Part shown: piece by piece, positions 46,636 to 57,330 of the stretch
Layout: each line of letters begins with the position of its first letter
Position numbering within the stretch: the stretch's first letter is position 1
Assembly (NCBI GenBank): GCA_016195085.1
Contig: JACQAG010000048.1
Span: 1-64,000 of the forward strand
From: Pseudomonadota bacterium
GTDB taxonomy: Bacteria; Pseudomonadota; Alphaproteobacteria; SHVZ01
Length of the DNA: 64,000 nucleotides
Reading direction: 5' to 3'
The notes under the pieces: generated by a model
What the model was told of the DNA's origin: nothing
Seen by the model: the letters and a program-made list of their open reading frames with translations, nothing else
Database searches by the model: none
Translations under genes and position numbers: made by a program

Positions 46636-47075
46636 GTCGGCCTCCGCGACCCGAGCCGACCTTGCGCGTCCCCGGGGCTTGCCCCTCGGGCTGGGCCGCG
46701 TGCCGCAACCGACCGATGGTGGGGTAGTAGAAGCCTCGATCATTTGGCAATCGTGCGGCGTGCCATCAGAACAGCGCACCGCTGTTTTCTGCGATAATTC
46801 TACTTCTTGTTCCTGTAGGGGCTACAGGTGATATCTCTCTTAGAGGCAAGAGCCAAGAGCAGAGCGCCATGATGCAATCGAGGAATCGCAACGGCGGCAC
46901 GAGCCGTGCGACTCGGCGGGGTGGACCATCTGGCGCCCGGCACCATAGTTGAGTTGCCGCGCGGGTGGGCGTGTAAGGCAACCACGTTTGCCGTACTGGC
47001 GGCTGGGCGGGAGCCCGTGATGCGAGGCTGGCGACGGTGACGCCACGAATGGACGAAGGCAGGTCTTCGGCCTAG
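46636..47075. other. Intergenic region with MerR-type promoter, no gene seen
   Basis: Short frames only. The notable element is the MerR-type promoter at 46807-46837. The first 27-codon frame after it (46866) is basic and unlike any known protein. Confidence 0.5.
46807..46837 (+). promoter_or_regulatory. MerR-type promoter/operator upstream of rod-like gene
   Basis: TTGTTC, a 19-bp spacer containing the perfect palindrome CCTGTAGGGGCTACAGG, then TATCTC. The long spacer and central dyad are hallmarks of MerR-family promoters. It matches the mer promoters at 48302 and 50699. The next plus-strand gene starts 240 bp later. Confidence 0.65.
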
Positions 47076-47627: not shown

Positions 47628-48110
47628 TCAGCGTGCGCGCGACGATGCAGCCGAACGCGGAGAGGCGTTCGGCAACGGCAGGCGCGTCCGCGGATCGAAC
47701 AATACGTCGATGATCGGGCATTCAGGCACCTTGCCTCTGCTGCAATGCGACGCCATCGTCTCGAGCACGTTCTTGAGCTTTCTTAGGTCCGAAATCTTCC
47801 GCTGGATCTCGCGCACGTGCTCGAGCACCAGGGCTTCGACCTGCGCGCAGGTGTACTTGCCGCCGTCGACGAGGCGGAGCAGCTCACGAATTTCCTCGAG
47901 CGTGAACCCTAGGTCCCGGCTCCGCCGGACGAAGTTCAGCCGCTTGAGAAGAGCTTGGTCGTAGAGGCGATGGCCGCTCTGGCTGCGGGGTGGCGGAGGC
48001 AGAATGCCGATTTGCTCGTAGTACCGGATCGTCTCGATATTGCAGCCGGTCCGGACGGCGAGCGCGCCCCTGGTTAGAAGTTTCTCGGCCTCGGCCTTGC
48101 TGCTCGCCAT
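47628..48110 (-). CDS. merR: MerR-type mercury-responsive regulator
   Basis: 160 residues from the ATG at 48110 (GAGAAGA upstream). The MerR winged helix comes first (RGALAVRTGCNIETIRYYEQ, IGILPPPPRSQSGHRLY). Then the dimer helix. The three Hg-binding Cys are at the places expected from Tn501 MerR: KYTCAQVE, MASHCSRG and VPECPIID. It should repress and, with Hg(II), activate mer promoters by DNA untwisting. It is divergent from the membrane-protein genes it probably controls. Confidence 0.9.
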   Translation of the reverse strand: MASSKAEAEKLLTRGALAVRTGCNIETIRYYEQIGILPPPPRSQSGHRLYDQALLKRLNFVRRSRDLGFTLEEIRELLRLVDGGKYTCAQVEALVLEHVREIQRKISDLRKLKNVLETMASHCSRGKVPECPIIDVLFDPRTRLPLPNASPRSAASSRAR

Positions 48111-48128
48111 TCTTCTCGCTCCGAAATC

Positions 48129-48143
48129 CTGTAGTCGATACAG
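48129..48143. promoter_or_regulatory. Probable MerR operator upstream of merR
   Basis: CTGTAGTCGATACAG, a dyad with five-base arms 19-33 bp upstream of the merR start codon. The arms match those at 48308 and 50705. Autoregulation is likely; the -35 and -10 hexamers are weak in both orientations. Confidence 0.5.
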
Positions 48144-48301
48144 ACCATAGTCTCCTGGCGCTGGCCCCGCAACGACCGGGCCGACGTCGCCGTGCGGCCA
48201 CCCGGATCGCATTGGCGTCCGATCAACCTTGCCTCGCCCTCCCCTTCGCAGAAGGTTCGATCAAACTCACAAACATGTGCGTTCCGCACCGAAAATTCTC
48301 C

Positions 48302-49331: not shown

Positions 49332-50204
49332 ATGGGTAACAGCATGGCGCCGCCATCCGTCTTCCAAGCGCTGCGTGGCGCTCCACCTTCTATCGACTTC
49401 TGGCTGCCGCGGTGCTGTGCGTTGTTGGCGACGGCCATTGGCCCACTGCCGCTTGTCCTCGATTTACGGTGGAACGTCTCAATGGCAAGCACAGGGCCGG
49501 TCCTGTGGGCCCTCTCTGTCGCTCTGGTCGTCGCAGCCGGGTTGCTCGCGCACCGCAACAACGACCGCGGACTGTTGCGTACGCTTTTTGTCGCCCTGTT
49601 GGGCGGCACGCTTGCCACCAACACCTATGACACCTTCCGATTCTCCGGCTTCAGCGGGGGTGTTATCGCGATGGACGAGGCTGGCGATTTCGGCGGCCGA
49701 CTGACAGGGCAGATCGCACCCGGGCCAATGCATCATGGAAGCGGCAGTGATCACATGGGCAAGAGTACTCATGTCGGAAGCGGTCCGGGGCCCTCAGAGG
49801 CGGCTCATGACACGGCAACTCAGCATGCCGGCGCCGGCATGCATGCCCAGAGCGAGCCAGGCGGATCACAGGCGATGCAGGGGTCAGGCGGCGAGCACGC
49901 AACCGACAGTATGGATCATGAAGGAAAGTCCGCCGGCCAACCTAATTCGGTAAAGACCATTTTGATCGGCTATGCATGGCACATTTGGGCTGGCGTGATG
50001 TTCAGTTTGGCCTTCCTCATTCTGTTCAGCGCGCGCCACTGGTGGATGCCGATCCCATATATGGTTCTCTTCATTTATCCGGGAATGGTCTTTGCCATGG
50101 GAGCGGACACGACCGCCAGCTTCGTGTGGGAGGCTGCAGGTCACGCCGCCTTCGGTGCGACCCTCGGCGCCGTAGGCTGGGCATATCTGAGCCGTGCTTC
50201 CTAA
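49332..50204 (+). CDS. Membrane protein with long His/Met-rich loop, mercury operon
   Basis: 290 residues, ribosome site GGGAGGAA. Three helices in the first 110 residues, then an extramembrane loop of about 90 residues rich in His, Met, Gly and Ser (MHHGSGSDHMGKSTHVGSG, AGAGMHAQSEPGGSQAMQ), then three helices (IWAGVMFSLAFLILFSARHW; YMVLFIYPGMVFAMGAD). A Cys pair lies near the N-terminus (PRCCALLA). The loop looks like a soft-metal sponge. Family not recognised; position in the mer cluster is the only functional clue. Confidence 0.68.
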   Translation: MGNSMAPPSVFQALRGAPPSIDFWLPRCCALLATAIGPLPLVLDLRWNVSMASTGPVLWALSVALVVAAGLLAHRNNDRGLLRTLFVALLGGTLATNTYDTFRFSGFSGGVIAMDEAGDFGGRLTGQIAPGPMHHGSGSDHMGKSTHVGSGPGPSEAAHDTATQHAGAGMHAQSEPGGSQAMQGSGGEHATDSMDHEGKSAGQPNSVKTILIGYAWHIWAGVMFSLAFLILFSARHWWMPIPYMVLFIYPGMVFAMGADTTASFVWEAAGHAAFGATLGAVGWAYLSRAS

Positions 50205-50760: not shown

Positions 50761-51180
50761 ATGGACAGCACCGTGCAGCACACACTGGGGGGCACGACCT
50801 CGGCATTGCGTGACCGAAGCCAGGCCGATTCCTCGACCCACAAGGCGGGATTGATGTCGTTGGGCGGCATTCTGGCGGCCCTTGGCGCAGCTTCGTGCTG
50901 CGTGGTGCCTTTCGCGCTGTTCACGCTCGGGATCAGCGGCGCCTGGATCAGCAACCTGACGGCCCTCGAGCCCTATCAGCCGATCTTCGCCGCCGTCACG
51001 CTTGGCTTCCTCGGCTATGGATTTTACCTCGTCTACCTCAAACCCAAGGCCGCCTGCGTCGAGGGCTCCCACTGCGCCAAGCCGAGCTCAGGCCGCATCG
51101 CGAAGATCGGGCTGTGGACGGCGGCGCTCCTCGTCATCGTCGCCCTCGGCTTCCCTAAGCTCGCACCGCTGTTCCTCTGA
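50761..51180 (+). CDS. merT: Mercuric ion transport protein MerT
   Basis: 139 residues. Three helices. First helix pair ASCCVVPFALFTLGISGAWI is the MerT signature, then NLTALEPYQPIFAAVTLGFL and a loop with two Cys (AACVEGSHCAKP). It moves Hg(II) from periplasmic MerP into the cytoplasm, where MerA reduces it. The merP gene follows after 29 bp. Confidence 0.93.
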   Translation: MDSTVQHTLGGTTSALRDRSQADSSTHKAGLMSLGGILAALGAASCCVVPFALFTLGISGAWISNLTALEPYQPIFAAVTLGFLGYGFYLVYLKPKAACVEGSHCAKPSSGRIAKIGLWTAALLVIVALGFPKLAPLFL

Positions 51181-51209: not shown

Positions 51210-51518
51210 ATGCTTCGACACATCGCCGCTGCTGCTGCCCTTGCCGTGATACTTTCGCCCTTGGCGGCCCAGGCGGCCGAAAAGATCGTCGTCCTGAATG
51301 TCGACAATGCGACCTGCGGACTCTGCGGGCCGATCGTGAAGAAGACGCTCTCGCGGGTGTCTGGCGTCAAGGCGGTCGAATTGAACGAGGGATGGTTCAG
51401 CTCGGGTGCCGTAGCGACGGTCACCTTCGAGGATACGGTCACCACCGTGGCCGCTCTCATCGCCGCGACGACCAAAGCCGGCTATCCGTCGCGCCCGGCG
51501 AACTTGGCGACGCAGTAA
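51210..51518 (+). CDS. merP: Periplasmic mercury-binding protein MerP
   Basis: 102 residues with ribosome site AAGGAGAG. Signal peptide ends LSPLAAQA. The mature ferredoxin-like HMA fold has NATCGLCGPIVKKTLSRVSG, giving TCxxC for Hg(II) binding (usual GMTCxxC, here NATCGLC), and ends ATTKAGYPSRP as usual. It scavenges Hg(II) and hands it to MerT. Confidence 0.9.
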   Translation: MLRHIAAAAALAVILSPLAAQAAEKIVVLNVDNATCGLCGPIVKKTLSRVSGVKAVELNEGWFSSGAVATVTFEDTVTTVAALIAATTKAGYPSRPANLATQ

Positions 51519-51581
51519 CCCACCTCAAGCCACTGGAAGCGTCGGACGGAGCGCTCTGAATTTGAGGGAATGGGACTTTAC

Positions 51582-53018
51582 ATGACCATGCACGACTGTT
51601 GCGCAATCGAAACCAATAAGCCGAACGGCCGATACGATCTGGCCGTCATCGGCGCGGGCTCGGCCGGCTTCTCGGCGGCCATTACGGCGGCCGAGCTTGG
51701 CGCCCATGTCGCCCTCATCGGGCACGGCACCATTGGCGGCACCTGCGTCAATATCGGGTGCGTGCCGTCGAAGACCCTGATCCGGGCGACGGAGACGCTC
51801 CACCATGCGGAGACGGCCGCGCGCTTCGCGGGCATCCGGGCGGAGGGCCGGATCGCGGACTGGCGCGCCGTGGTCCGGCAGAAGGACGAGCTGGTATCCT
51901 CGCTCCGCCAGGCGAAGTACGTCGACCTGCTGCCCAGCTACAACACCCTCGCCTATCTGGAGGGTCAGGCGCGCCTGGTGGATGGCGGCGTTGCCATTGA
52001 CGGTCGCTTGGTCAAGGCCGCGAAGATTGTTGTGGCGACCGGTGCTGCGCCCGCGCTTCCGCCCATCCCAGGCATCGAGGCAGTACCTTATCTGACCAGC
52101 ACCACGGCGCTCGAGCTCGAGCGGTTGCCGAAGTCCCTGCTCGTCATCGGCGGCGGCTACATCGGTTGCGAGCTCGGCCAGATGTTTGCCCGTGCGGGCG
52201 TGAAGGTGACCATCGCGTTCCGCACGCGTCTGCTGCCCGAAGCCGAGCCGGAAATCGGCGAAGCGCTGACCCGCTACTTTCGGGATGAGAGCATCGTCGT
52301 CCGCGGTGGGCTCACCTATCGGGACATCCGGCAGGGGCCGGACGGGGTGACGCTTTCCGTTCTGGCGGGCGGCGCTGCGGAAAGCATCGAGGCCGAGCAG
52401 GTCCTTGTCACGACCGGACGCCAGCCCAACACGAAGAGCCTGGGTCTCGCGGCGGCCGGCGTGGAGCTTCTGGCGAACGGCGGCATCAAGGTGGACGACC
52501 GGATGCGAACCTCCAAGCCCGGCGTCTACGCCGCCGGCGATGTCACGGGGCGCGATCAGTTCGTCTACATGGCGGCCTATGGCGCCAGGATCGCGGCAGC
52601 GAACGCGCTCAATGGCGACAGCCAGCGCTACGACGCCGCGGCCATGCCGGCGGTCGTGTTCACCGACCCGCAGGTTGCCAGCGTCGGCCTGACGGAAGCC
52701 AAGGCGCGCCGACAAGGCTTTGAGGTGAAGACCTCCGCGCTGCCGCTTGAATACGTCCCTCGGGCGCTCGCCGCGCGCGACACGCGCGGCCTCATCAAGC
52801 TCGTCGCCGAGGCCAAGAGCGGCAAGCTGCTCGGTGCCCACATCCTGGCGCCCGAAGGCGCCGACAGCATCCAGACGGCGGCGCTTGCGATCAAATGCGG
52901 GCTCACGGTCGGGCAGCTCGCGGAGACGATATTCCCCTACCTAACGACGGTCGAAGGACTGAAGCTTGCGGCTCAGACCTTCAACAAGGATGTCACCAAG
53001 CTGTCCTGCTGCGCCTGA
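51582..53018 (+). CDS. merA: Mercuric reductase
   Basis: 478 residues from the ATG at 51582 (GAGGGA 12 bp upstream; an ATG at 51570 is too close to it). FAD motif AVIGAGSAGFSAAI, redox pair GGTCVNIGCVPSK, NAD(P) motif VIGGGYIGCELGQ and C-terminal FPYLTTVEGLKLAAQTF and KLSCCA, so the C-terminal Cys pair that receives Hg(II) and the conserved Tyr are present. No N-terminal HMA domain, a common variant, but MHDCC adds a Cys pair. Reduces Hg(II) to volatile Hg(0) with NADPH. Confidence 0.95.
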   Translation: MTMHDCCAIETNKPNGRYDLAVIGAGSAGFSAAITAAELGAHVALIGHGTIGGTCVNIGCVPSKTLIRATETLHHAETAARFAGIRAEGRIADWRAVVRQKDELVSSLRQAKYVDLLPSYNTLAYLEGQARLVDGGVAIDGRLVKAAKIVVATGAAPALPPIPGIEAVPYLTSTTALELERLPKSLLVIGGGYIGCELGQMFARAGVKVTIAFRTRLLPEAEPEIGEALTRYFRDESIVVRGGLTYRDIRQGPDGVTLSVLAGGAAESIEAEQVLVTTGRQPNTKSLGLAAAGVELLANGGIKVDDRMRTSKPGVYAAGDVTGRDQFVYMAAYGARIAAANALNGDSQRYDAAAMPAVVFTDPQVASVGLTEAKARRQGFEVKTSALPLEYVPRALAARDTRGLIKLVAEAKSGKLLGAHILAPEGADSIQTAALAIKCGLTVGQLAETIFPYLTTVEGLKLAAQTFNKDVTKLSCCA

Positions 53019-53030
53019 AAGGGCAGCGTT

Positions 53031-53303
53031 ATGGCGCGAGGCTCCGGAATCGGACTGGCCCCCATGATCGCCGCCAAGGTCGTCTGCTGTGGTGGTCTCT
53101 GCCTCGCCGCGACCGGGACACTTTCCGGCTTCGGCGCTTGGCTGACCGGAAGCGGCCACGTATGGATCGGTGCCGCGGTTGGGGCTCTTCTCATCGCGAT
53201 CGCGCTGTGCTCAATCGCCGTCGCTGCAGGGCCGATGGCCAACATGGCGCAAATACCGCCCTTGGACATCGCGCTCGTCCGGTCTCGTGGGCCGGCGCTA
53301 TGA
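53031..53303 (+). CDS. Small CC membrane protein between merA and the cyclase
   Basis: 90 residues, 12 bp after merA. Two helices: AAKVVCCGGLCLAATGTLSG with Cys pair plus a third Cys, and AAVGALLIAIALCSIAVAAG with a fourth. It looks like a minimal mercury carrier in the manner of MerE or MerF but matches neither clearly. Its stop overlaps the cyclase start as ATGA. Confidence 0.7.
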   Translation: MARGSGIGLAPMIAAKVVCCGGLCLAATGTLSGFGAWLTGSGHVWIGAAVGALLIAIALCSIAVAAGPMANMAQIPPLDIALVRSRGPAL

Positions 53304-54529
53304 GTGTGCCTCTGGGAGCAGAGGTATCCAGCGCTGGTTTCGATAGCTATCGGGAAACCTGCGGCTCGGCCGACCTCGCGCTGGCGCTTACGCAAGCCGC
53401 CCTCAAGTCACAGCAGACGGAAGCCTTTGTTAGCGCGGCGGGACGCACGTTGTCCGATTCGCCTCTTCGGGCGGCACGATTGTTCGTCAGCATGCGCGCG
53501 CTCCACCCGGCCTTCCGCGCCCGCACTTACCTCTGGGAGCAGGACACCGGATACGTCCGCACGGTGGAATGGCCACACGGTCTTGAAAATCGCCCAGGCT
53601 ATTACGATTCGCCTGATCACCTGGTTCATCGGACTGGCTCGGAGCTCCGTGTCCGCCGTCCGGGCATGAGCGGTGAACACACATGCGACCTTTACGGGAC
53701 GTTGCGAGCACAGGGCTACACCGACTACCTGATCGTCCCGCTTCTCCTAGGCGACGGCACGATCAACACCCTGTCGATTGCCACGAGAGAGCCGGCCGGC
53801 TTTCGGGACCACGACCTCGATTGGCTCCGCGAAAGCGCTCCGTTGTTCACCGTCATCCTCGAGCGTCACACCGCGCTCGAGGCGCTGGATGCCGTCTTGG
53901 AGGCGTATCTCGGACGCGGCGTCGGCGAGCAGATCCTGCGCGGGAAGATCCATGCCGGCGATGGCGAGCTGATCGACGCCGCGATCCTGATCGCCGATCT
54001 GCACGACTTCACCCAGCATGCGGCGCACCTTGACCCGGCAGCCACGGTAGCGCTGCTCAACCGGTATTTCGACTGCCTCGTAAGCCCAATCCGGGAGCAC
54101 GCCGGCCACGTCCTCAAGTTCATGGGCGATGCGGTTCTCGCATTCTTCCCTGCCCTGGCGGCCGAAGCGGCGCCCGACCCGCTGGCCGCCGTCGGTGCGA
54201 TTCGCCGGCGCCTTGCCGCGCTGAACACCGTTCGCTCAAGCGCAGGACAAAGGCTGCTTCGGCACGCTCTCTGCGTTCATTACGGTCAGGTGCTGTACGG
54301 CAATATAGGTTCGACCGAGCGGCTCGACTTCACAATCATCGGGGAAGCGGTTAACCTTACGGCGCGTGGCGTCGAGGCAGCGAAGGAGCTCGGCGTCGAG
54401 TACCTCTTCACGGGCGCTTACGTGGAGCGCTTTGGCGCGGTGGGCCTGACATTCTCGGGTCACCGGATACTGAGGGGTATTCCGCAACCGGTCGAGATGT
54501 TCACGCCCGCCGGTGATTGGGCGTGCTGA
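53300..54529 (+). CDS. Class III adenylate/guanylate cyclase in the mer operon
   Basis: 409 residues, cytoplasmic, start overlapping the preceding stop by 4 bp. Residues 1-215 form a GAF-like sensory part (TYLWEQDTGYVRTVEWPHG, GYTDYLIVPLLLGDGTIN, STAT replaced by SIATREP). The catalytic domain has ILIADLHDFTQHAA (metal Asp), LKFMGDAVLAFFP (second Asp), HYGQVLYGNIGSTERLDFTI and GEAVNLTARG (Asn and Arg for transition state). The lysine/aspartate pair for adenine choice is not certain, so cAMP is likely but not proven. A cyclase inside a mer operon is unusual. Confidence 0.88.
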   Translation: MSVPLGAEVSSAGFDSYRETCGSADLALALTQAALKSQQTEAFVSAAGRTLSDSPLRAARLFVSMRALHPAFRARTYLWEQDTGYVRTVEWPHGLENRPGYYDSPDHLVHRTGSELRVRRPGMSGEHTCDLYGTLRAQGYTDYLIVPLLLGDGTINTLSIATREPAGFRDHDLDWLRESAPLFTVILERHTALEALDAVLEAYLGRGVGEQILRGKIHAGDGELIDAAILIADLHDFTQHAAHLDPAATVALLNRYFDCLVSPIREHAGHVLKFMGDAVLAFFPALAAEAAPDPLAAVGAIRRRLAALNTVRSSAGQRLLRHALCVHYGQVLYGNIGSTERLDFTIIGEAVNLTARGVEAAKELGVEYLFTGAYVERFGAVGLTFSGHRILRGIPQPVEMFTPAGDWAC

Positions 54530-54678: not shown

Positions 54679-55080
54679 ATGATCGCGAGCACGACCGAGC
54701 ATCCGACTAGCGGATTTTCGAAGCGGAATCTCGACAAAATCGGGGTCGGTGGATCAGTCTTCGCGGCGCTCTGCTGCCTTGGCTTTCCGGCCCTTATCTC
54801 CGTTCTATCGGCGATCGGACTGGCGTTCATCCTGAGGGATGCGGTCCTGATCCCGCTGTTGCTGGTGTTCCTGGCCGTTACCCTTTACGGGCTGTATCTC
54901 GGAATTCGCCACCACCATGAGCCCTGGGCTCTGATCCTGGGCGGGGTTAGCGCGGCCGTGACCTTCGGGTTCATCGGGATCGCGCCGAATGGTGCCCTTG
55001 CCGGCGTCGGCATAGCCGGCCTGGTGGTCGCCAGCCTTCTGAATGTCTGGCTCAGGACACGCCAGTTGCGAGCCGGATGA
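54679..55080 (+). CDS. merC: Mercury transport protein MerC
   Basis: 133 residues from the ATG at 54679 (GGAGAGG upstream). Four helices. The MerC signature is NLDKIGVGGSVFAALCCLGF followed by PALISVLSAIGLAF, and the last helix is GVGIAGLVVASLLNVWL. It lies 149 bp after the cyclase gene. MerC is an alternative inner-membrane carrier for Hg(II). Confidence 0.92.
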   Translation: MIASTTEHPTSGFSKRNLDKIGVGGSVFAALCCLGFPALISVLSAIGLAFILRDAVLIPLLLVFLAVTLYGLYLGIRHHHEPWALILGGVSAAVTFGFIGIAPNGALAGVGIAGLVVASLLNVWLRTRQLRAG

Positions 55081-55171: not shown

Positions 55172-56518
55172 ATGGCCAAAACGTACGACCTTGTGATTGT
55201 CGGCTCCGGCACGGCGGCGCAAGTGGCAAGCGCGCGGATCCGCGCCGCCGGATGGAAGGTTGCTGTAATCGATCACCGTCCGTTCGGCGGCACCTGCGCG
55301 CTGCGGGGTTGCGATCCGAAGAGGATGCTGATCAGCGGCGCCGAGGCCATCGACGCCGTCAAGCGCATGCGCGGGCACGGTGTGGCGGGTGAACCGCGGC
55401 TCGACTGGCGCCAGCTGATGGCGTTCAAACGCAGCTTCACCGACCCGGTTCCGCACAAGCAGGAAGAACGCTACGCCGAGAATGGAATCGACACCTTCCA
55501 CGGGCTTGCCCGGTTCAGCGGTACCGATGCTGTCGCCGTCGAGGGCCAGGAACTCAAATCCCGTTACATTCTAATCGCAGCCGGCGCGCGTCCGGTCCCG
55601 CTCGACATGCCCGGCGAGGAGCATGTCGTGACGAGCGATCGCTTCCTCGAACTCGATGCGCTGCCCGAGCGCATCGCCCTGGTGGGCGGCGGCTACATCG
55701 CCGCGGAATTCTCCCATCTCGCCGCGCGAGCCGGCGCGCGGGTAACCGTGTTCCAGCGCGCCGAGCGGATGCTCCCCGCCTTCGACCCGGATCTGGTCGG
55801 CTGGCTCATGGCGAGATTCGACGAGCTCGGCATCGAAGTGCGCACGCGCTCGTCGGTGCAACGCATCGACAAGACGGCCGATGGCTTTCTCGTGCATGCC
55901 TCGACCGATGGCCAAACACAGATGGTGGCCGCCGATCTGGTCATACATGCCGCCGGCCGCGCGCCCGATCTCGACGCGCTCGATCTCGCTGCCGCCGGAA
56001 TCGCTGCCGAAAAAGGCCGGCTGAAGCTCAATGAGTACCTCCAGAGCGTCTCCAACCCCAAGGTCTACGCGGCCGGCGATGCGGCAAACAGCGGTCCGCC
56101 GCTGACGCCGGTATCGAGCCATGATGGCAAGATCGTCGCCCGAAACCTGCTCGACGGCAATCGACACAAGCCCGACTACCGAGGCGTGCCTAGCGTCGCG
56201 TTCACGATTCCGGCGATAGCGGCTGTGGGCCTGAGCGAGGCGGAGGCGCAGTCGAAGGGGCTGAAATTCCGTGTTAACTCGGAGATGGTATCCGAATGGT
56301 ACACGGCGCGACGGCTAAATGAATCGGTATACGGCTTCAAGACGCTGGTCGAGGAGGATACCGACCACGTCTTGGGCGCCCATGTCGTAGGCCCGCATGC
56401 CGAAGACGTCATCAATCTCTTCGGTCTCGCAATACGCCACGGTCTGACGAGCAAAGATCTGAAGTCGACGATGTTTGCCTATCCGACGGGCGCCTCGGAT
56501 ATCGGCTACATGCTTTAG
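55172..56518 (+). CDS. MerA-like flavin disulfide oxidoreductase with altered C-terminus
   Basis: 448 residues. FAD motif VIVGSGTAAQVASARI, redox pair GGTCALRGCDPKR, NAD(P) motif LVGGGYIAAEFSHLAARAGA, and second FAD motif KVYAAGDAANSG. The C-terminus reads FAYPTGASDIGYML, where disulfide reductases have HPT and a Glu, so the catalytic base pair is changed. There is no terminal Cys pair as in MerA. It lies between merC and merB, so a part in organomercury or thiol handling is plausible. The substrate is unknown. Confidence 0.85.
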   Translation: MAKTYDLVIVGSGTAAQVASARIRAAGWKVAVIDHRPFGGTCALRGCDPKRMLISGAEAIDAVKRMRGHGVAGEPRLDWRQLMAFKRSFTDPVPHKQEERYAENGIDTFHGLARFSGTDAVAVEGQELKSRYILIAAGARPVPLDMPGEEHVVTSDRFLELDALPERIALVGGGYIAAEFSHLAARAGARVTVFQRAERMLPAFDPDLVGWLMARFDELGIEVRTRSSVQRIDKTADGFLVHASTDGQTQMVAADLVIHAAGRAPDLDALDLAAAGIAAEKGRLKLNEYLQSVSNPKVYAAGDAANSGPPLTPVSSHDGKIVARNLLDGNRHKPDYRGVPSVAFTIPAIAAVGLSEAEAQSKGLKFRVNSEMVSEWYTARRLNESVYGFKTLVEEDTDHVLGAHVVGPHAEDVINLFGLAIRHGLTSKDLKSTMFAYPTGASDIGYML

Positions 56519-56571: not shown

Positions 56572-57330
56572 ATGCACTTGCAGGATCTGCCATCCGTTGA
56601 GCTGAGGCCGGGCGTTCGGCGCCCGGATTGGTCGGCGATTACTAAGCCTGCGGCGCAGGAAGCCCTCTTGCGTCGTGCCGTCGCGCGGTCGGGCCTCATG
56701 GCAAAGTGGTCGACCGAGCTGGAGCCCGGCCAGGATTTGGCGTGGCGGACGGTGCTGGAGCTATTTGCCCGCCTCGGACGGGCTCCCCGACTGAAAGAAA
56801 TAGCTTCGGAGCTGGATATGCCCGAGGAGAAGCTCGCAGCCGTGCTCCACCAGCTGCACGGCCGCGACCTCATCGGGGTCGACGAGAACCAAAGCGCGAT
56901 CGTGCACGCTTATCCCCTCGCTCAGCGTGATACGGGTCATCGCGTCGAGCTCAACGGGGTGCGCCTAAATGCTCTGTGCGCGGTCGATGCGCTCGGTATG
57001 GGCTCAATGTATCGGAGGGACGTGGCCATTCAATCCGCCTGCAGATGCTGCGGAACGGAGATCCGTATTACCACCGCGCAGCGCGGGACGGCGCTCGCGA
57101 GCCGCTCTCCGGCCGGTTCCGTCGTGTGGTACGACCATGCTTACGAGCAGACGGCCGCGGCTTCGTGCTGCCCGATGATCGCCTTCTTCTGCAGCGACGC
57201 GCATCTACAAGTATGGCTGACGCGGCAGGTGCCGGCCCGCATCGGCTGCCGGTTGGCGCTCGATGAGGCATTTGAGGTGGGCCGGGCGATCTTCGGCCCC
57301 GTTCTGAGCCCGGCAACCAGTCCGGTGTAG
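56572..57330 (+). CDS. merB: Alkylmercury lyase (organomercurial lyase)
   Basis: 252 residues, ribosome site GAGAGG. The N-terminal 75 residues are helical with a winged-helix part (LELFARLGRAPRLKEIASEL). The catalytic core has NALCAVDALGMG (Cys and Asp corresponding to C96 and D99 of R831b MerB) and AAASCCPMIAFFCSDAHL (corresponding to C159). It cleaves C-Hg bonds, giving Hg(II) for MerA. Longer than the 212-residue R831b enzyme, by an N-terminal and a mid insertion (SACRCCGTEIRI). It is the last gene of the island. Confidence 0.92.
   Translation: MHLQDLPSVELRPGVRRPDWSAITKPAAQEALLRRAVARSGLMAKWSTELEPGQDLAWRTVLELFARLGRAPRLKEIASELDMPEEKLAAVLHQLHGRDLIGVDENQSAIVHAYPLAQRDTGHRVELNGVRLNALCAVDALGMGSMYRRDVAIQSACRCCGTEIRITTAQRGTALASRSPAGSVVWYDHAYEQTAAASCCPMIAFFCSDAHLQVWLTRQVPARIGCRLALDEAFEVGRAIFGPVLSPATSPV

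Follow-up and report, generated by a model that had tools for sequence, protein, structure and literature searches.

Second-messenger enzymes and mercury resistance operons

Mer operons, which belong to the most thoroughly studied of mobile resistance systems, have been described as self-contained detoxification machines. A large survey of mer systems covered MerA, B, P, T, C, E, F, G, R and D and included no cyclase (PMC8261052). It has been described that mer operons of the Tn501/Tn21 type encode Urf2 (Mrp), an EAL protein which is a functional c-di-GMP phosphodiesterase in Cupriavidus metallidurans and which is induced by metal along with its operon (PMC6629876). Second-messenger enzymes in mer operons consequently have a precedent in Urf2/Mrp, one overlooked by an initial sequence-only reading of the DNA studied here, which held that such operons encode regulators, carriers, reductase and lyase, not cyclases. 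The window (the whole stretch of 64,000 nucleotides analysed) possesses a mer locus in which a GAF and class III nucleotidyl cyclase of 409 amino acids is encoded (53300..54529; coordinates refer to the window and to its + strand unless otherwise stated). This protein resembles Urf2/Mrp, another second-messenger enzyme with its gene in a mer operon, but Urf2/Mrp has an EAL/DUF3330 composition, degrades c-di-GMP rather than synthesising cAMP and occurs in another mer lineage and at another position. Kinship with Urf2/Mrp was ruled out, as the protein has no EAL domain and matched only Guanylate_cyc and GAF.

Three further groups of described or sequenced proteins are close to the cyclase. Solitary alphaproteobacterial GAF and class III cyclases share its domain order and catalytic residues, but they lack its cysteines Cys129 and Cys325, are not linked to mer genes in the short flanks read and are set apart by a long stem with 100/100 support. 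CyaC of Spirulina platensis and CyaB of Pseudomonas aeruginosa have the same catalytic fold in model comparisons (Foldseek TM 0.78-0.79 on the target), whereas their upstream sensors differ and they are not linked to metals. Plasmid pMR68 of Pseudomonas sp. K-62, which has three mer clusters, carries the same cyclase (57.9% identity), although there the gene adjoins merB2 and is not placed after merA; the paper describing pMR68 makes no mention of it (PMC3737084). Within the open-access literature searched, no paper was found that treats a mer operon or mercuric reductase together with an adenylate or nucleotide cyclase, and the closest papers, by title and abstract, likewise refer to no mer-borne cyclase. 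The mer-borne gene, predicted to encode an adenylyl cyclase, is real, recurring and apparently undescribed.

Organisation of the locus and its recurrence

The locus begins with a merR-type regulator on the - strand (47628..48212), identified by MerR/CueR-type NCBIfam and Pfam matches, for which a start near 48110 (MASSKAEAEK) is more likely. On the + strand, merT (50761..51180; Pfam MerT, 2.3e-28; ORF listed from 50629, with the ATG at 50761 as the likely start) is followed by merP (51210..51518; NCBIfam MerP/HMA match, under the MerP cut-off) and by merA for mercuric reductase (51570..53018; TIGR02053, 558 bits, over the NCBIfam MerA cut-off). Twelve nucleotides past the merA stop lies CC90, encoding a membrane protein of 90 amino acids with a K-x-x-CC motif (53031..53303) and homologues in mer loci L010, L013, L014 and L015. 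The ATG of the cyclase at 53300 overlaps the TGA of CC90 (53301-53303) as ATGA, so that the ORF coordinates agree with the 12-bp spacing and 4-bp overlap initially read from the sequence. That reading also had merC and merB following the cyclase. Both are present, but the first, a MerC/MerF-like membrane protein gene (54679..55080; Pfam MerC, 2.2e-14; weak NCBIfam MerF/MerC), is separated from the cyclase by 149 nt from its probable start at 54679, and a gene for a MerA-like flavoprotein disulfide reductase (55172..56518) sits between it and merB, which encodes an organomercurial lyase (56572..57330; Pfam MerB, 7e-30). The flavoprotein recurs in mer loci L010, L015, L016 and L017 with 46-66% identity across loci, does not reach the curated cut-offs for either MerA or glutathione reductase and is possibly another accessory mer enzyme. 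Between the regulator and merT, window positions 49332-50204 encode a membrane protein of 290 amino acids without a Pfam match (C-terminus GYAWHIWAG...FIYPGMVFAMG); a homologous fragment adjoins the cyclase of pMR68 (L009, 11441-11707).

The genes merT, merP, merA, CC90 and the cyclase form a same-strand run with a MerR-type promoter in front. This promoter/operator, P2 (50699..50729; TTGAAC-ctgtagctcctacaggacc-TATATC, with a dyad and a spacer of 19 nt), was identified 5' of merT by sequence match in a pattern search; this MerR-type promoter (CTGTAGnnnCTACAG) has close counterparts 5' of merT in L014 and L015. As the search pattern was derived from P2, independent support is provided by the sites in other loci and by a second site in the window, P1 (48302..48332), where TTGAAC and CATGTT flank 19 nt with the dyad CTGTAccta-CTACAG (none expected in shuffled sequences). 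No promoter was detected when a generic sigma-70 scan was applied, as is expected for MerR-type sites with spacers of 19 nt, and a consensus scan found no strong terminator between merT and the cyclase. MerR-type promoters together with this lack of a strong terminator make co-transcription of merA and the cyclase likely. A further operator-like site of the MerR family occurs at 46806-46837, outside the mer run described.

Recurrence of the order merA-CC protein-cyclase in other genomes had been set beforehand as a check, and the arrangement was found again, with the same order in L015. Relatives were sought in one scan of 84,980 genomes using two eight-residue patterns from the GAF module, a method blind to mer context. 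Nine were obtained, and eight of them lie in mer clusters when their flanks are searched with the mer proteins of the window; the remaining one, L012, starts 5 bp from the edge of its contig. Chance proximity was ruled out on these grounds, all eight relatives with readable flanks being in mer clusters. An assembly artefact was also ruled out, as the two genes are well inside the window and isolates as well as complete plasmids show the arrangement too, and so was phage origin, neither phages nor viral contigs having yielded a match. Plasmid searches added two carriers, pMR68 and a plasmid of Leisingera aquaemixtae R2C4, the latter with the order merA-hypothetical-merB-CcdA-cyclase. In L013 and L014 the order is merA-CC-merB-cyclase, L013 also having a CcdA-like gene between CC and cyclase. 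Same-strand runs of cyclase and mer genes occur in L013, L014 and L015 as well, and five loci have the CC protein immediately behind merA. The association is nevertheless rare: among 36 MerA loci in 385 alphaproteobacterial genomes only that of the window has the cyclase, and a wider tally of 398 proteobacterial and 346 Leisingera-family genomes gave no new member of the subfamily.

Domains, catalytic residues and phylogeny of the cyclase

The catalytic domain (residues 224-400; 53969..54499) matches Pfam Guanylate_cyc (PF00211) at 30.9 bits against a cut-off of 21.9. As the sequence-only reading had claimed, the cyclase is complete, with the metal-binding aspartates D233 and D277 and the transition-state residues N352 and R356; in the alignment each pair is kept in all seven members of the mer-type clade. 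The same holds for K273 and T345, the ATP-type specificity pair of class IIIb, whereas the guanylyl cyclase Cya2 carries E in place of K273. The product had first been given as cAMP or another cyclic nucleotide; K273/T345 disfavours a guanylyl cyclase and predicts ATP as the substrate (IIIb type). With all six catalytic residues present, membership of class III is well supported by the sequence.

The GAF-like N-terminus noted at the outset was borne out by several methods. Pfam GAF (PF01590) is just under its cut-off when the whole protein is scanned, but the N-terminal part alone exceeds it (23.9 against 22.4 bits), and this part matches Pfam GAF in six of eight relatives. Sequence-profile comparison of the module with solved structures found nothing, so that its placement among these comes from fold comparison: an AlphaFold2 model of the module (residues 43-195; 53426..53884) has a mean pLDDT of 84, and Foldseek gave as best matches the GAF domain of a Nostoc response regulator and those of PDE5/PDE6, including cGMP-binding PDE GAFs. 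On the profile and the model, the N-terminal part is assigned a GAF fold. The full-length model is weaker (pLDDT 68), with its catalytic part matching the CyaC/CyaB fold. The sequence HTCDLYGTLRAQGY may resemble the bilin-Cys region of phytochrome GAF domains.

In a tree of 39 proteins, six mer-linked cyclases and the contig-edge copy L012 form a single mer-type clade, which has 100/100 support and a long stem (1.83 changes per site). A profile of this type scores the module of the window at 315 bits and any other relative in the 385 alphaproteobacteria at no more than 104. The general GAF-cyclase family is common, the N-module profile being matched in 118 of these 385 genomes, and 11 further cyclase matches occur in the genome of the window. 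In the MerA tree, proteins from the cyclase loci are scattered without clustering, which argues against a single common ancestor of the cyclase-bearing mer clusters. One cyclase clade with scattered MerA partners implies that the cyclase either moved between mer clusters or was lost from most of them, and that its linkage to mer outlives recombination among these clusters. It is well supported by these comparisons that the gene is an accessory mer gene, its subfamily being found almost only in mer clusters.

Conservation within the mer clade is equal in the two domains (mean identity of 58% for GAF and 58% for cyclase) while in the general family it is 34% and 46%, respectively; equal conservation is expected if all members sense one signal. 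Exactly one cysteine per domain is invariant in the clade, Cys129 in the GAF module (codon 53684..53686) and Cys325 in the catalytic domain (codon 54272..54274), and neither occurs in any of the 32 non-mer relatives, which have F/Y/H at the first site and A/G/S/T at the second. The two cysteines could be structural, because the long stem fixed many residues.

The mer-type protein is also found in incomplete form. One mobile mer element, seen in ten plasmids of the Agrobacterium/Rhizobium type and in four genomes, retains the GAF half and has lost the cyclase half, the copy stopping directly past the linker beside an inverted hisI gene. The resulting stand-alone GAF module of 221 amino acids (L010, 8967-9632; also L017, L018, L019 and L020; identical in the ten plasmids) is either a remnant or a separate sensor. 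In an Afipia copy, a frameshift splits GAF from cyclase. Together these copies indicate that the cyclase half is dispensable in some carriers.

Possible roles of the cyclase in the response to mercury

The explanation we favour, and hold to be somewhat probable on the sequence comparisons, is that this accessory mer gene encodes a GAF-regulated adenylyl cyclase which would link mercury to host cAMP. Hg(II)-bound MerR would switch on the operon, cyclase included; the GAF module, via Cys129 and perhaps Cys325, would report intracellular Hg(II), organomercurial or thiol stress and adjust activity; and cAMP would act via the host's own cyclic-nucleotide-binding regulators, so that a mobile detoxification operon would speak to host physiology. 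The host genome encodes cNMP-binding domains in 11 places, and cAMP receptors would thus be available. Counting against mercury-linked cAMP signalling are the GAF-only and frameshifted copies, the lack of a cAMP receptor in the flanking genes examined and the lack of MerA, at the threshold used, in the metagenome-assembled genome of L012. If the favoured explanation is true, a conserved mer-specific cAMP enzyme would mean that some mer operons also signal to the host cell, and some bacteria may broadcast a cell-wide alarm while detoxifying mercury. Taken with Urf2/Mrp, this would point to at least two recruitments of second-messenger enzymes by mer elements.

The subfamily-specific cysteines and the equal conservation of the two domains make a thiol-based sensor of mercury or organomercury plausible. 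In its strongest form, the GAF module would sense Hg(II) or organomercury directly through Cys129, giving the first toxic-metal-gated adenylyl cyclase and a mobile operon with its own cAMP output; this we put forward tentatively, as possible rather than probable. The invariant cysteines allow a direct test of metal sensing by the GAF module.

A rival to the favoured explanation, on the whole unlikely, is coupling through expression only, in which Hg(II) would induce the cyclase via MerR, the GAF module would sense a cyclic nucleotide, a metabolite or redox state, and the rise in cAMP would be set by transcription. A MerR-type promoter would by itself give mercury dependence, GAF domains commonly bind small molecules, and the Foldseek neighbours include cGMP-binding PDE GAFs; set against this, the sole invariant GAF cysteine is specific to the mer clade and the module is more conserved than is usual for a sensor that is free to vary. 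We give little credence to the opposite effect, that Hg(II) or organomercury would bind Cys129/Cys325 and inhibit the cyclase, cAMP falling for as long as free mercury persists and then recovering after clearance by MerA. Mercurials commonly inhibit thiol-bearing enzymes, and the model places Cys325 in one of the core strands of the catalytic domain, but two mercury-reactive thiols kept merely for poisoning would be a costly design unless regulatory. That recombination brought the cyclase into mer clusters, which carry it with no role related to mercury, is very improbable: mer clusters move and pick up genes, members of the subfamily are few (one of the 36 alphaproteobacterial merA loci sampled) and GAF-only and frameshifted copies exist, but all catalytic residues are retained by the six unbroken copies although these are only 51-57% identical, mer linkage is kept across several bacterial orders despite differing MerA partners, and neutral decay is already disfavoured.

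Two other genes were noted in the cyclase-bearing and GAF-bearing clusters. In two mer operons of Leisingera (L013, 7058-7888; L082, 715-1545), the gene for a CcdA-like thiol-redox membrane protein separates merB from the cyclase, which hints at thiol chemistry in the vicinity of the enzyme. Mer clusters on plasmids unrelated to each other (L010, 9563-9979; L011, 5659-6081, in pMR68) enclose a hisI-like gene for phosphoribosyl-AMP cyclohydrolase, that of pMR68 corresponding to orf5 in the description of the plasmid (PMC3737084).
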